Source: Candidatus Manganitrophaceae bacterium
Lineage (GTDB): Bacteria > Nitrospirota > Nitrospiria > SBBL01 > Manganitrophaceae
Assembly (NCBI GenBank): GCA_016200325.1
Contig: JACQEZ010000014.1
Coordinates: 62,001-126,000, forward strand
Direction of reading: 5' to 3'
DNA length: 64,000 nt
The notes under the pieces are model-generated. The model searched no databases and was not told the origin of the DNA. It saw only the letters and a list, made by a program, of their open reading frames with translations. The translations under genes and the position numbers were made by a program. Shown here one piece after another: positions 6,080-39,317 of the stretch; within the stretch, counting starts at the first letter, position 1; each line of letters begins with the position of its first letter.

Positions 6080-7198
6080 ATGAGCCAGATTGCTGAGAAG
6101 ATGCAGGAGGGGGTTGCCTCCGGGGTCTTCCCAGGAGGGGTCCTGCTGATCCATCATCAGGGGCAGATCTGCTTCCATGAGGCATTTGGATCGGCCTCCC
6201 TTCTTCCCAATCAGATCCCGATGACCTGTGACACCCTCTTCGACCTGGCCTCCCTCACCAAGCCGCTTGCCACCGCGGCCGCGGTTCTTTTATTAATTCA
6301 AAACAAATCGCTTACGCTCACCGATCCTCTCTCCAAGTTTTTTCCCGAATTCGCTGAAGGGACCAAGCAGGAGATCACCCTTTATCATCTTCTCAATCAC
6401 AGCGCCGGTCTGCCAAATTGGAAGCCTTACTATCAGGAGATCGTCGAGCGGGAAGAAAAAGAGCCGGGGTTTTTGGGCTCCCCCTCCGCAAAACGCCTCG
6501 TCTGTCAGCGGATGCGTGAGGAGCCGCTGATCGCCGCGCCGGGTCGCCAGAGCCTCTACAGCGATCTTGGATTTATTCTCCTGGGCGAGGTGGTGGAGGC
6601 GGTCGCGACCGAGCCGCTTCACCGCTTCTGTTATCGGCAGCTCTTCTCTGAGCTTCATTGTAAGGAGACTTTCTTTATCCGCATCGGCCGCCGACCGCAG
6701 GCCTACCGAGGCCGTCTCTTTGCCGCGACCGAAGAGTGTGCCTGGCGGGGAAAGGTGATCCGAGGGTGGGTCGATGACGACAATGCCTATGCAATGGGGG
6801 GCGTGGCGGGCCATGCCGGGCTCTTCTCCACGGCATGGGAGGTCTATCGGCTGGTTCGGCTCTGGCTCGACTCCATTGCGGGAGAAGGGTTGCTCGATCC
6901 GACCCTGGCCGCTCTTTTTACCACCCTGCAGAAAGGGAACGATGTCCCGGTCGGCTCTTCTTGGGGGCTTGGTTGGGACACGCCGTCACATCCAGGCTCT
7001 TCGTCCGGCCATCATTTCTCCGCCCTCAGCTTCGGTCACCTCGGATTTACGGGGACGTCGATCTGGGTCGATCGGAAAAAAGATCTGGTCGTTATTCTTC
7101 TGACCAATCGGATTCATCCCACCCGCGAAAATCAAAAGATCCGCACCTTTCGCCCCGAGCTGCATGATCTGATCTTTCAAGAGGTCGTCGGTGTCTAA
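6080..7198 (+). CDS. Beta-lactamase-fold serine hydrolase (class C/EstB-like)
   Basis: A 372-residue member of the serine beta-lactamase-like (COG1680) family. The catalytic motif SLTK appears in DLASLTKPLATA (Ser near residue 58). The second motif is YSDLGF, with Asp where many members have Asn. A third motif, HLGFTGT, sits near residue 315. No clear signal peptide is seen, so the protein may be cytoplasmic. Its stop overlaps the GTG start of ldcA by 8 bases and it follows mpl, so a role in handling muropeptides is plausible. Family members also act as esterases or D-amino-acid peptidases, so the substrate is unknown. The ATG at 6080 has only a distant GAGGAGGA as ribosome-binding site. Confidence 0.85.
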   Translation: MSQIAEKMQEGVASGVFPGGVLLIHHQGQICFHEAFGSASLLPNQIPMTCDTLFDLASLTKPLATAAAVLLLIQNKSLTLTDPLSKFFPEFAEGTKQEITLYHLLNHSAGLPNWKPYYQEIVEREEKEPGFLGSPSAKRLVCQRMREEPLIAAPGRQSLYSDLGFILLGEVVEAVATEPLHRFCYRQLFSELHCKETFFIRIGRRPQAYRGRLFAATEECAWRGKVIRGWVDDDNAYAMGGVAGHAGLFSTAWEVYRLVRLWLDSIAGEGLLDPTLAALFTTLQKGNDVPVGSSWGLGWDTPSHPGSSSGHHFSALSFGHLGFTGTSIWVDRKKDLVVILLTNRIHPTRENQKIRTFRPELHDLIFQEVVGV

Positions 7199-8417: not shown

Positions 8418-8585
8418 ATGAAATGTCCAAGATGCTCAGGATCGATGGTTCACGAAAACTTCTACGGCTTGGAAGATGAATACGCCTGGTTCTATCCAGG
8501 CTGGAGATGTGTTTATTGCGGTGAAATTGTCGACAAAGTTATTATGTCGAACCGAAAATCGGCCGGTCGCCATCGGAGCCGATAG
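8418..8585 (+). CDS. Small zinc-ribbon protein (two CxxC pairs)
   Basis: A 55-residue open frame starting MKCPRCSGSMVHENFYGLED and ending in a basic tail (NRKSAGRHRSR). It contains CPRC near the start and CVYC about 30 residues later, set after WFYPGWR. This is the layout of a treble-clef or zinc-ribbon knuckle. I recall very similar short proteins (CPRC.G.M ... GWRC..CG ... DPV...NR) as common singletons in Nitrospira-type genomes. Their function is not known to me; an RNA or protein adaptor is possible. A GAGG sequence 6 bases before the ATG can serve as ribosome-binding site. Confidence 0.65.
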   Translation: MKCPRCSGSMVHENFYGLEDEYAWFYPGWRCVYCGEIVDKVIMSNRKSAGRHRSR

Positions 8586-9263
8586 TCTTTCTCCGGTTAT
8601 CGTAGAGCCTCGCCGTCTTAGTGAGCAAAAGCGAGTTCTCTTGAGACGGTGCTTGGGCGGCTGCTTTGTAATCAGGACGGTGTCCGCCCGGGTTCAATTG
8701 CCATATGAATTTCTCCGCAAAGGAATGGTTCTTTCCTCTGCGGCTAAAAAAATAAGGAATGACCTCTCCACAATGTGAGGTGAAAGCGCGGTCAATTTTG
8801 ACCGATATCGAATTGCTCCCCATTCCGGCAGTGCGATGCTATCTCCGGTGGCACATGTCGCAATGCTCGACTTAATTTTGAGTCATTCGCCGCGCTCTGA
8901 TGATAACCGCCATTGGAAACCGCTGTCTTAAATTAGGTCGAGCACCGAGAAATGGAACTTGCTGACCCAGAGGTTTTAGAGACAAGGAGGGGTGCCCTCT
9001 CCGCCCATGCACAGGACGACATGAACCAAGAAAAGCATGCTTGGTATATACCGGAGATCGCCAACTTCGGAATCGGCGTTCATGGCGGTTGGATGAAATC
9101 AAAATGCCGACAGCGGCGAAGGTTTCGGAGGAGCCCATCTTCGGCAAGAATATCGACAATGCCATCGTCCGCGCCGGCCTGCCTCCGATTTCGACGAACA
9201 ATTATCAGGTTCGAGGCGGTCTGACATTTCTGTTCCATTAAATAACCTTTAAAGGAGACACAA
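8586..9263 (+). other. Gene-poor region with a possible gene remnant
   Basis: No convincing intact gene in about 680 bases. Two adjacent frames between about 9035 and 9241 read NFGIGVHGGWMKSK and then, after a -1 shift near 9101, MPTAAKVSEEPIFGKNIDNA and onward to NNYQVRGGLTFLFH and a stop. The last segment has the alternating pattern and aromatic end of an outer-membrane beta-barrel strand, so this may be the decayed 3' end of a porin-like gene. The call is weak. Confidence 0.25.
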
Positions 9264-34548: not shown

Positions 34549-35379
34549 ATGCAAAGGGGCGTCGGCTGCAGCACCCGCTTATATTTCGATCCGGGCCAAC
34601 AGGAATCTTCCGCGGAGGCCTCTCTCTGTCGATTCGAACTGCGAGTTGAAACAAAGAAAGAAAGCGGGTCGATCCCTCCTCCCCCTTCGGTCCTCCCATC
34701 TCACAGAGAGAGGCTGCGGTTCTTCTCCTTTTCTTCTCTTTCCACCCCGTTGCTGATCGCCGCGGTGTTTCTAATCTTCAGCGGATGTGCCGGCGCGCCT
34801 CGACGGGCCGATTACGTCGTCGGCTACCGGGAGGTCGGGCGGGCGTCATGGTACGGCAAGGATTTTCACGGACGGCCGACCAGCAGCGGCGAGATTTATA
34901 ATATGTTCGGCCTCTCCGCGGCCCACCAGACCCTCCCCTTGGGAACGCACCTGCGCGTGACCGAATTAAAGAGCCATCGAAGCGTTCAGGTCCGGGTCAA
35001 TGACCGGGGCCCGTTTGTCGGAGGGCGAATCCTCGATCTCTCCTACGGCGCGGCAAAAGCGCTGGGGATCATCGAAGAGGGGACCGCCGAGGTCGAAATC
35101 GAGGTGATCGGCTTCGCCGTCCCGGCTCGGGGGGTGGGAGGATTCCTGGTTCAGCTCGGATCGTATCAATCAAAAGAGAATGCGCTTCGGATTAAAGAGA
35201 AGGCCGGCCAATATTACCAGACCGCTTTTGTAGAGACGGTCGAGACGAACACCGGACGGTTCCACCGGGTCCGGGTCGGCCCATTCCGCTCAGAGCGGGA
35301 AGCGCAAGAGGCGGCCCGTCATCTTCCACAAACGTTGCCCACGGAAGGGATTCAGCCGGTCGTGATTCGAGGAGATTAA
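34549..35379 (+). CDS. rlpA: RlpA-family septal lytic transglycosylase with SPOR domain
   Basis: An outer-membrane lipoprotein with a double-psi beta-barrel (about residues 95-185: REVGRASWYGKDFHGRPTSS, then VNDRGPFVGGRILDLSYGAA) and a C-terminal SPOR domain (about 200-275: GGFLVQLGSYQSKENALRIK), which binds denuded septal glycan. RlpA cleaves naked glycan strands in some species. The lipobox FSGC has its Cys at residue 80 if the ATG at 34549 is used, which leaves an odd 55-residue leader. There is no other ATG, GTG or TTG in frame before it, so the start is uncertain; a CTG near 34711 with a purine-rich upstream is possible. Confidence 0.88.
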   Translation: MQRGVGCSTRLYFDPGQQESSAEASLCRFELRVETKKESGSIPPPPSVLPSHRERLRFFSFSSLSTPLLIAAVFLIFSGCAGAPRRADYVVGYREVGRASWYGKDFHGRPTSSGEIYNMFGLSAAHQTLPLGTHLRVTELKSHRSVQVRVNDRGPFVGGRILDLSYGAAKALGIIEEGTAEVEIEVIGFAVPARGVGGFLVQLGSYQSKENALRIKEKAGQYYQTAFVETVETNTGRFHRVRVGPFRSEREAQEAARHLPQTLPTEGIQPVVIRGD

Positions 35380-35389
35380 TCCAACCGAT

Positions 35390-35803
35390 ATGTTGAAACG
35401 ATTCCATCAACTGCATCAAAAGGTCAGCACCGGCTCGCAGAAGGGTTTCACCCTGATCGAGTTGATGGTCGTGGTGGCGATCGTCGGCATCCTCGTCACC
35501 CTCGCCGAGCCGTCGTATCGCCTCGCCACCGTCAAAGCAAAAGAAGCGGCGCTCAAGAGAGACCTCTACATTTTTCGAGACGTAATCGATCAGTACCGGG
35601 CCGACCAAGGGAAATACCCCGCGGCCCTCTCCGACCTGGTCGAAAAGGGCTACCTCCGATCGATCCCGAACGATCCCTTTACCGGCGCCACCACCAGCTG
35701 GGTGGAGCTGTATCTCTCCCAAGGAGACGAATCGGGCGTCTACGACGTCCACTCCGGCAGCGATATTATTGGGACGAATGGGACTTCTTATAATGAGTGG
35801 TAG
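35390..35803 (+). CDS. gspG: GspG-like major pseudopilin
   Basis: A 137-residue type II secretion/type IV pilin-like protein. The prepilin site is G/FTLIEL, with Glu at +5, after an 18-residue basic leader; then comes the hydrophobic helix MVVVAIVGILVTLAEPSY. The C-terminal part has GspG features (VIDQYRADQGKYPAALSDLV, then RSIPNDPFTG and the late Tyr/Asp loop). It lies 5 kb upstream of the gspF/gspE-like operon. A prepilin peptidase must be supplied from elsewhere. Confidence 0.9.
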   Translation: MLKRFHQLHQKVSTGSQKGFTLIELMVVVAIVGILVTLAEPSYRLATVKAKEAALKRDLYIFRDVIDQYRADQGKYPAALSDLVEKGYLRSIPNDPFTGATTSWVELYLSQGDESGVYDVHSGSDIIGTNGTSYNEW

Positions 35804-35961
35804 CGGGGTTTTCTTCGAAGGACCCGATTGCTCTGAATTCGCTCTTATTCGGTCTCGTTTCCTCCGTATTTCAGACAGTTCAATTCAAGTTGGGGGCATC
35901 ACTTCCCGTAGCGGCATGCTGTCTGAGACATTGTAAGGCACTCATTGGTGCTAAATTCTTC

Positions 35962-36351
35962 ATGAAAGAATTAATAAACACACCTACCCCGCTTGAGTTT
36001 CTGGAGAGTGGCTCTTTTTGGAGCCCTGAGCCAAGGAATCTCTTGATTTTGTCCGGTCTCGTTTCGCTTGCCTGTATCATCTATGTTTGGCGAAAACCGG
36101 GGCGCGTCGCTGAAAAGATTTTCTGGTCTGTGGTGCTGTTAGTGCCAGTTCTTGGACCGCTTTTTCTGGGCGCGTTTTACCGTTCTCCCACGGTCCAGGC
36201 ATCGCACCTCAGGGGTCGGGAGAATCGAGATATTTATTCCCCTCAGTCGGAAGATCATGGAAACCCTGTCTCCGGCGGAGTATTAGATGGCTGCTCGCCG
36301 CCAGACGTGGGGAGTGGGCATTGCGGGGACACTCACAGCGACAATCACTAG
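35962..36351 (+). CDS. Small membrane protein, PLDc_N-like
   Basis: A 129-residue protein, starting MKELINTPTPLEFLESGSFW if the ATG at 35962 is used. Two membrane segments (LLILSGLVSLACIIYVW and IFWSVVLLVPVLGPLFLGAFY) with the intervening KPGRVAEK and the P-x-x-G-P motif match the PLDc_N (cardiolipin synthase N-terminal-like) two-helix module. The C-terminal 45 residues are polar and unmatched. The frame is open back to 35797, but that part is not convincing. An 8-bp inverted repeat (35871-35878 with 35919-35926) lies upstream. Confidence 0.5.
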   Translation: MKELINTPTPLEFLESGSFWSPEPRNLLILSGLVSLACIIYVWRKPGRVAEKIFWSVVLLVPVLGPLFLGAFYRSPTVQASHLRGRENRDIYSPQSEDHGNPVSGGVLDGCSPPDVGSGHCGDTHSDNH

Positions 36352-36393
36352 ACTTCTTATTATTCCAATTTGGAATTTTAATTGCAGGGGTTA

Positions 36394-36894
36394 ATGATGG
36401 ATGCGCAGAAGCTGAAGGAACTCCAAGCTCCATTGAAGCAGAGATATAAAGATCAGCCGCAATCGGCCATGGTGACGCTGAGAGCGCAATCAAGAATTGG
36501 GGAGGGGATCACCTGTAAGATTTAAACCGGAAAGGCCCTGGTTGAAGCGGGTCTTCACCCTGCGACGGGAGGGGATGGGCTTTCGGCCTGTTCGGGCGAT
36601 ATGTTGCTCGAAGCGTTGGTCGCATGTGCCGGGGTGACGTTGAGGGCGGTCTCCACGGCGATCGGGGTTCCTTTACGCGATGCAACCGTGAGTGCAGAAG
36701 GCGACCTCGATTTTCGAGGCACGCTGGCCGTCGACAAGGAGACGCCGGTCGGTTTTCAAAAAATTCGGCTCAAATTCGACTTGGAGAGCGATGCGACGCC
36801 TGAACAACTGGCGTTGCTGATGAAACTGACCGAGCGGTATTGCGTTGTCTATCAAACATTGATCAATACACCTGCAATTTCTATTTCATGCTAA
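36394..36894 (+). pseudogene. OsmC-family gene interrupted by an in-frame TAA
   Basis: Read through as one frame, this is a 165-residue OsmC-like protein: MMDAQKLKELQAPLKQRYKD, GEGITCKI, stop, TGKALVEAGLHPATGGDG, ACSGDMLLEALVACAGVTLR. The TAA at 36523-36525 stands where relatives usually have a Glu codon before TGKALVEAGLH, so one G-to-T change would explain it. Both expected cysteines (ACSGD and VACAGVTL) and the rest of the frame are intact. OsmC proteins reduce organic peroxides. It is either a fresh pseudogene, two separately translated parts (a restart at the ATG at 36601 is possible) or a sequence error. Confidence 0.82.
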
Positions 36895-36923
36895 TTCAAT
36901 ATTTCCGTCGGAAGATCTTTCTT

Positions 36924-39317
36924 CTATCTCTTAATCGTCACCGTATCAAAAACCGCCCCAGTCGGATCGATTGCTTTGAGGGTGAGGGTATCGCCGGCCA
37001 TCTCTCCTAAAATCAGATGATAGCTCGATGCTGAAAAAGCGGTGAAAGCGCTCGATCCCACCTCGGTGAGCGGGGAGCCGCCCCCGCCGGTGACGATATA
37101 GGTCACCCCATTCATCGAATGCGTCCGCTCGTAGGAGTGGGCGTGCCCGTTAAAAACCACCCGGACGCCATATTTCTCGAAGAGGGGAACGAAGTTGTTC
37201 AAGGCATGTGATTCACTCCCATACTCCCCATTGCTGTAAGGGGGATGATGGAAGTAAACAATTTTCCATTTGGCGGTGCTGGCGGCGAGCGTCTGCTCCA
37301 GCCAGGCGAGCTGTTTCGGATCGGGAGAGTGGAAGGAAGCATAAGTCGAATCGAGCGCGATGAAATGGGTGTCCCCCCAGTGAAAGTCATAATAGAGATT
37401 TTCTTTGGGATGATAGAAATGTGATTTGAAAGAGACGCCATTGTTGTCGAGGACATCATGGTTGCCGACGACGGGGAAAATAGGCAGGTGGCGGATTACA
37501 TTTTTATAGGGGGTAAAATAATGCGGATCGAACTCCGCTTCCGTGCCCCGATCGTAAATGACATCCCCGGGGATCAGCCCGAACGAAAAGGAGAGTTTTT
37601 CCATCAGCGCGGCAACGGAGTCCTGGGCCGGCATGCCGCTGCCGCAATCTCCGAAGACGACAAAATTAAATTGATTGCTCCCCGGCGCTTTGGCACTCCG
37701 AAAGGTCCCCTCTCCGAACGTCACTCCGTTCACGACGACCCGATAGGTGTAAAGGGTGTTCGAGCGAAGATTGGGAAGGGTGACGAAATGTCTGTTCCCG
37801 AGGTCCCCCTTTGCTTCGAAGTTATCGAAAAAGGTCATCGCGGCGGCGGTGGCGTATGATCGAATCCCGGCGAAGTCGCCTTGCGCCAGGCTGGAATCAT
37901 CGACCGTGATGGCTGGGGTCGTCTCATCGGCGAAAAAGGCCTGGAGCTGCTGCTGATGGATCTCCAAGCGGAGCCGGTAGAATGTTTCCGATGTCAGCGA
38001 CCGGTTCGCCGTCGCGAGCGTGGTATAGACCCCTCCCACCTTTTTCATCAGACGGATGTTCTGCTGTCCGGCATCAAGGCGGAGATAATAATAGTTGTTC
38101 GGGTCGAGCCACCGCCCCATTACCCCGCAGCTGTTTCCAACCTCCTTGACCATGCAGTCGGCTGAGACCGATTGATTCGGCCCGAGGTGTTTGGTGATCC
38201 GCGCCTCTTGTGCGGCGGCATCGAGGTTGACGATCTGATTAGAAATAATTTTAAAGTCGGGAAGATATTCATCCCAGCCATGCCCGATCGTGGTGGCATC
38301 CGGAACATTAAACCCATCTCCAAAGGCGGAGAAGCCGGCGCTTCCCTTCTGGTGGTTCATCGTTGTACCGGCCCCCCATGTGACGGTGCCGTCGGTGTCG
38401 CACTCCCAGGCGAGCGTGGCCGATGTGGGGGTCATAAAAGCGATGTAGGGGAGCCGTGTGGGGCCCGGACAGATCGAGTCGGTCGTGATTTTCACTTGAG
38501 TCGAAGCCGTCGCTCCGGCGTTGTCGGTCACGGTCAATTTCACGGTATAGGTTCCGGCGGTGTAATAGGTATGGTCGACTGCGGCGGCCGTTTCGGTGGT
38601 TCCGTCTCCAAAATCCCAGCGATACGCGGCGATGGTTCCATCGGCGTCCGAGGAGGCGGTACCGTCAAAGTGGATTGTCAACGGGGCCTCTCCGGATGCG
38701 GGGGCATTGGAGAGGCGGGCGACCGGCGGGCGATTGATCGATACGGCGCTGAAATTGTTAAACCAGGTGGTATCGGCGGCGGAGGCATAAGAACGAATCC
38801 CGGCATAATTTCCTGCGGTGAGCGATGTGTCGGTGACAGAGAGGGCCGGGGTCGATTCGTTGGCAAAGTAGAGCTTGAGTGAGCTTCCGCTGAAGACAAG
38901 GCGAATTTTATAATAGGTGTTGAGCTGTAAGCTCCGGACGGCCGTTCCAAGCGGGGTGGAAGCGCCATTCACGACCTTGAAGAGCTTGATGTCTCCTGCG
39001 CTGGCGTCAAGCCGCGCATAATAAAAATTGTTTGCGTCGGCCCATCTCGCCATTACCGCGCACATGTTGCCGGCCGCCGTCACCTTGCAGTCGGTCGAAA
39101 CATCCTGATTCGGACCAATCGCCGGGGTAAACTGGGTCGCTTTGCTGCCAGCATTGCTGTTTCGGAGCTGGTTGTTGAAAATATCTAAGTTAATAAGATA
39201 TTCGTTCCAACCGCTTCCCAAATCAGTGCTGTTGGGCCGGTCGAAGGTGTCTGAAGTGGCCTGGGCCGAAGCGGTGGTAAAGAGAAAAAATAAGAAGAAG
39301 ACAACGATCCATTTCAT
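36924..39317 (-). CDS. Secreted modular metallophosphoesterase with PKD domain
   Basis: A 797-residue secreted protein with signal peptide (cleavage near ASAQA). Two similar lectin-like beta domains occur at about residues 20-195 and 330-495 (DTFDRPNSTDLGSGWNEY and GFNVPDATTIGHGWDEYLPD). A PKD domain lies at about 198-280 (DGTASSDADGTIAAYRWDFG). A purple-acid-phosphatase-like N-domain (RLPYIAFMTPTSATLAWECD) is split by the second lectin-like domain. The C-terminal calcineurin-like domain has VFGDCGS, GDVIYDRG, VVGNHD, FHHPPYS and FNGHAHSYER. It probably cleaves phosphate esters outside the cell. GGAGTGAG precedes the ATG. Confidence 0.88.
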   Translation of the reverse strand: MKWIVVFFLFFLFTTASAQATSDTFDRPNSTDLGSGWNEYLINLDIFNNQLRNSNAGSKATQFTPAIGPNQDVSTDCKVTAAGNMCAVMARWADANNFYYARLDASAGDIKLFKVVNGASTPLGTAVRSLQLNTYYKIRLVFSGSSLKLYFANESTPALSVTDTSLTAGNYAGIRSYASAADTTWFNNFSAVSINRPPVARLSNAPASGEAPLTIHFDGTASSDADGTIAAYRWDFGDGTTETAAAVDHTYYTAGTYTVKLTVTDNAGATASTQVKITTDSICPGPTRLPYIAFMTPTSATLAWECDTDGTVTWGAGTTMNHQKGSAGFSAFGDGFNVPDATTIGHGWDEYLPDFKIISNQIVNLDAAAQEARITKHLGPNQSVSADCMVKEVGNSCGVMGRWLDPNNYYYLRLDAGQQNIRLMKKVGGVYTTLATANRSLTSETFYRLRLEIHQQQLQAFFADETTPAITVDDSSLAQGDFAGIRSYATAAAMTFFDNFEAKGDLGNRHFVTLPNLRSNTLYTYRVVVNGVTFGEGTFRSAKAPGSNQFNFVVFGDCGSGMPAQDSVAALMEKLSFSFGLIPGDVIYDRGTEAEFDPHYFTPYKNVIRHLPIFPVVGNHDVLDNNGVSFKSHFYHPKENLYYDFHWGDTHFIALDSTYASFHSPDPKQLAWLEQTLAASTAKWKIVYFHHPPYSNGEYGSESHALNNFVPLFEKYGVRVVFNGHAHSYERTHSMNGVTYIVTGGGGSPLTEVGSSAFTAFSASSYHLILGEMAGDTLTLKAIDPTGAVFDTVTIKR

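Follow-up and report, generated by a model that had tools for sequence, protein, structure and literature searches.

In the Ohr/OsmC peroxidases, as described for XfOhr, the catalytic residues are Arg19, Glu51 and Cys61, with the glutamate lying ten residues before the peroxidatic cysteine, and the proteins form tight homodimers whose active sites lie at the dimer interface (PMC5962072). A second point of reference comes from young pseudogenes: in Salmonella, 346 of 378 pseudogenes were reported to carry a single inactivating mutation, 131 of these being premature stops (Kuo and Ochman 2010, PMC2916853). In-frame stops have also been described in bacterial genes that, as a group, show dN/dS < 1 (PMC7918605). 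The locus described here, in a draft genome of Candidatus Manganitrophaceae, touches on all three. It lies in a contig stretch of 64,000 nucleotides (hereafter the window) and is an OsmC-like gene interrupted by one TAA. Like the Salmonella examples it combines one inactivating point change with a lack of accelerated divergence; unlike them, as they are presented in that report, the stop is known from one genome of the species and from a draft assembly. We consider it probable, though well short of certain, that this is a real and very young nonsense allele, either a young pseudogene or a segregating allele of an ordinary kind.

An OsmC-like frame with one internal stop

The frame and its parts are as follows.

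36394..36894, + strand: OsmC-like frame of 166 codons, closed by a terminal TAA and broken by one internal stop
36523..36525, + strand: internal TAA, codon 44, in a homologue column that is mostly Glu
36394..36522, + strand: upstream piece of 43 residues; a Pfam scan of 36382-36522 gave nothing at E 0.001
36601..36894, + strand: restart frame of 97 aa from the first ATG/GTG/TTG past the stop, starting at M70 within a predicted central helix (67-90)

The internal TAA shares its frame with the ATG at 36394 and the terminal TAA at 36892-36894. With the stop read as X, the 166-residue translation scores 64.8 bits against Pfam OsmC (PF02566, gathering cut-off 27.5) and aligns without frameshift to 87 homologues, picked by similarity to the window protein (the best 80 of at least 577 confirmed in a genome collection, plus 7 from relatives; this set underlies all counts out of 87 below). 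This bears out the first-pass annotation, made from the sequence alone, which had described a frame conserved on both sides of a single TAA. The gene is one for a small OsmC-family protein, probably with a redox role.

The same annotation had expected Glu at the stop, and Glu is indeed the commonest residue in that column, although other residues occur there too (E 60, D 11, Q 5, A 5, S 4, H 1, K 1; n=87); of the five genus mates, four have Ser and one has Asp. No in-frame stop interrupts any of the 87 homologue matches.

The fold assignment agrees with the family assignment. The best predicted model has a mean pLDDT of 87.3 (the other four, 74.5-83.9; stop read as Gln), and five PDB chains match at E <= 0.001, all of them OsmC-like (2OPL twice, 3CJE, 1LQL twice), with an rmsd of 8-19 A over the alignments. 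Of the solved structures, the OsmC-like protein GSU2788 (2OPL) is the best match both in sequence (E 1.6e-14) and in fold (Foldseek E 3.3e-09, TM 0.65/0.60), but it superposes only in part, with 24% identity and an rmsd of 18.7 A along the Foldseek alignment; in addition, a serine of 2OPL aligns with window Cys150. A further likeness is to the NCBIfam OsmC-related (seleno)protein model NF041052, which the window protein matches with 41.5 bits over model positions 47-136; this is below the curated cut-off of 95 and leaves the protein outside that family. Selenoprotein-type recoding was rejected as an account of the stop: the codon is TAA rather than TGA, it lies away from any cysteine column, and it is common to none of the 87 homologues.

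Lack of decay and age of the stop

At the 68 near-invariant columns of the homologue alignment (>=95% conserved) the window protein deviates once, and 46 of the 87 homologues deviate equally or more. It has 2 private residues against a mean of 2.2 in the others, 54 of which have at least that number. Identity to the homologue L044 rises from 69% before the stop to 82% after it. Faster evolution of the first part seems to be general, since two other nearest pairs (L046/L044 and L047/L050) likewise go from 69% to 80% across the stop position; the pair L044/L045 is without that contrast (83% and 85%). Pairwise dN/dS is not quoted, synonymous sites being saturated against L044, L045, L046 and L005.

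We simulated neutral decay by random substitution, counting a frame as clean if it had gained at most one new change at a near-invariant column and no new stop. The probability of a clean frame was 0.45 at 1% substitution, 0.11 at 2%, 0.022 at 3% and 0.005 at 4%; the stop, if real, is thus younger than roughly 2-3% neutral divergence. A long-decayed pseudogene is ruled out by this simulation together with the single deviation in 68 columns and the two private residues. What is found is an inactivating change without further decay, as in young pseudogenes, and a frame this clean implies either that the stop is very young or that the base is wrong or a minority one.

The latter alternative, a miscalled base, a consensus error or an allele of a minority strain carried into the draft consensus, fits the sequence equally well, and we regard it as a real but distinctly less likely explanation. 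It would account for the full conservation of the rest of the frame, and the assembly is a draft of 20 contigs in which tRNA-Ile(GAT) and tRNA-Ala(TGC) were not found; the one point against it is that the change is a substitution and not a change in homopolymer length. On the favoured account of a young nonsense allele, purifying selection would have kept the OsmC-like gene intact up to a very recent time, when one nonsense change at codon 44 would have arisen in the assembled lineage or strain. The expected product, a peptide of 43 residues, would lack the OsmC core and leave the gene functionally null, and the locus would be either a young pseudogene or a nonsense allele that is still segregating. 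We infer that the TAA is truly in the organism's DNA, that the gene yields no functional product and that the organism tolerates the loss. In practical terms the locus should be annotated as a pseudogene candidate rather than as a redox enzyme, and its significance goes little beyond that and its value as a clean example of possible very young gene loss.

Cysteines and the position of the catalytic glutamate

Four cysteine codons mark the subfamily.

36514..36516, + strand: Cys41, before the stop; Cys in 87/87
36589..36591, + strand: Cys66, within one homologue-finding pattern; Cys in 87/87
36625..36627, + strand: Cys78, matching in position the central-helix (peroxidatic) cysteine of OsmC/Ohr; Cys in 87/87
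36841..36843, + strand: Cys150, matching in position the second cysteine of OsmC/Ohr; Cys in 87/87

The cysteines noted in the first-pass annotation as remaining are thus all in place, three of the four (Cys66, Cys78 and Cys150) downstream of the stop. The invariance of Cys66 is partly a selection effect, as two patterns were used to find homologues and this residue sits in one of them. Cys78 and Cys150 correspond to the two reactive cysteines of Ohr/OsmC peroxidases and are putatively reactive themselves.

The likeness to XfOhr as described in PMC5962072 thus extends to the fold family, the central-helix cysteine and the second cysteine. It ends at the catalytic glutamate and at the two extra invariant cysteines of the window subfamily. 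Ten residues before the central cysteine, taking the spacing as ungapped, the window protein has Gly68, and of the 87 homologues 79 have Gly, 7 have Ala and 1 has Ser; both paralogues in the same genome have Glu there (NPEE before Cys). Peroxidase activity of the subfamily is therefore unproven, and the earlier label of a peroxide-reducing enzyme is a family inference only. The subfamily can be described as OsmC-like, with four invariant cysteines and no glutamate at the Ohr catalytic position.

Read-through and restart

A gene that is still functional through read-through would keep a frame as clean as that of a young loss, and suppressor read-through had been among the explanations first offered for the stop. 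TAA would then be decoded at some rate to give the full-length protein, in keeping with the way the frame is conserved before and after the TAA and with the group-level dN/dS of bacterial genes with in-frame stops cited above. The evidence from this genome points the other way. An Rfam tRNA search over the assembly gave 46 matches, and ARAGORN, run on loci covering all of them, named 45 distinct genes; all 45 have ordinary anticodons, with no stop-reading tRNA and no TTA anticodon among them, and the match that ARAGORN left unnamed has CCC as read from the Rfam alignment. TAA is the terminator of 5 of the 14 Pfam-matched window genes inspected, the OsmC-like gene included (the PilM and pilin T2SSG matches in this set are below their cut-offs). 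No Rfam match at E <= 1 occurs within 35300-37500, and the stop is peculiar to the window gene relative to the 87 homologues. We therefore judge read-through to be very unlikely. A more specific version, in which the TAA is real and fixed and low-level read-through without a dedicated suppressor tRNA makes the stop a dose dial for an acquired OsmC-like protein, is highly speculative and would be somewhat less probable still.

Among the tRNAs found in the 20-contig assembly, the absence of tRNA-Ile(GAT) and tRNA-Ala(TGC) indicates that the tRNA list is incomplete, perhaps because an rRNA operon is absent from the draft assembly.

It might also be that the gene is now split, with the 97-residue product from the ATG at 36601 retaining Cys78 and Cys150 and working alone. 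This fragment by itself scores 62.3 bits against Pfam OsmC, above the cut-off, but the ATG lies 75 bases past the stop with no clear Shine-Dalgarno sequence by eye. Translation from it would start partway through the predicted central helix and lose the predicted helix 4-20, strands 26-35 and 41-43, Cys41 and Cys66; the last of these strands is unsure, because residues 41-50 have a mean pLDDT of 55. Given these missing elements and the active sites at the interface of the tight OsmC/Ohr homodimers (PMC5962072), the predicted structure makes function of either piece unlikely, and we give the split gene hardly any credence.

Genomic context

The genes on either side of the OsmC-like frame are listed below.

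35390..35803, + strand: pilin-like gene, upstream flank, adjoining RlpA here and in the genus-mate stretches L022, L040 and L041
35797..36351, + strand: uncharacterised ORF of 184 aa; PLDc_N at 19.7 bits, below the cut-off of 23.3
36924..39317, - strand: PKD/metallophosphoesterase gene, convergent downstream flank, with relatives elsewhere in genus mates

The window OsmC-like copy comes after RlpA and the pilin gene. No OsmC-like match occurs in the corresponding genus-mate RlpA-pilin stretches L022, L040 and L041. In the genus-mate stretches examined, the 184-aa ORF has no tblastn match at 1e-8, and relatives of the PKD/metallophosphoesterase gene are absent from the RlpA-pilin stretches examined.

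The interval between pilin and MazG in L041 (5261-9203, genome G005) corresponds to the interval that holds the OsmC-like gene in the window; it has a cassette-like appearance, with small variable genes split by inverted sequences that look attC-like by eye (two of them lie near 8530-8600 and 6286-6345). An integron cassette origin of the window gene was considered and found little support: no attC-like sequence was seen by eye in window positions 35800-37400, and none of six genomes has a match to the integron-integrase model above its cut-off, the weaker matches in 6/6 being found likewise in 14/14 controls.

Relatives and origin of the window copy

Comparison with sister genomes, proposed in the first-pass annotation, goes part of the way. 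An open relative is present in 5/5 genus mates, with 70-72% identity downstream of the stop position, but these copies adjoin TrmI, within a few hundred bases in 5/5, and are not at the window locus. A stop arising in the genus copy at its usual locus is therefore too simple an account of the window gene. Of 41 genomes (own, genus, order and class) 9 match at E 0.001, one of them at no more than 31% identity. Outside the genus, close relatives are patchy: in a draw from the phylum without genus mates 3 of 395 genomes match at E 1e-20, its own included. Since two OsmC-family paralogues in the same genome (C1:340840 and C11:463795) are open and close relatives are patchy outside the genus, loss of the window gene is probably tolerated.

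Among the matches listed, full-length identity is 79% to a metagenome-assembled genome (MAG) labelled Caldithrix and 76% to one labelled Granulosicoccaceae, and it is 66-67% to the genus copies, which places the window copy nearer in similarity to genes from other phyla than to those of its own genus. A tree groups the window gene with the Caldithrix- and Granulosicoccaceae-labelled genes, at a weak support of 64/85 and with a bootstrap that has not settled and 40/85 inner branches open. The AU test does not reject a single clade uniting the window gene and the genus copies (p 0.279; 0.0547 when two class relatives join the genus-copy clade), and horizontal transfer therefore stays a candidate only. 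As judged from sequence comparison, the window gene may be either a separately acquired copy or a relocated genus copy.

Base composition was set aside as a sign of transfer. GC3 of the window gene (0.593) is within the range of the 14 window genes (0.571-0.739); the values for two genus copies are 0.753 and 0.771, and these are not diagnostic because the five genes measured at this genome's own TrmI locus are likewise high (0.719-0.789). A plasmid DNA search returned 10 records at 60-80% identity, one of which covers >80% of the query and is annotated as an OsmC family protein.

In G005 and G002 (L038/L039) the gene order at the TrmI locus is TtcA, TrmI, OsmC-like, TPR, OsmC paralogue, pirin. 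The genome that carries the window gene has the same order except that the OsmC-like slot is empty, with 59 bases from the TrmI stop to the TPR start (L037:3889-3947). This difference, an OsmC-like gene retained beside TrmI by the genus mates and missing there from this genome, is a side lead.
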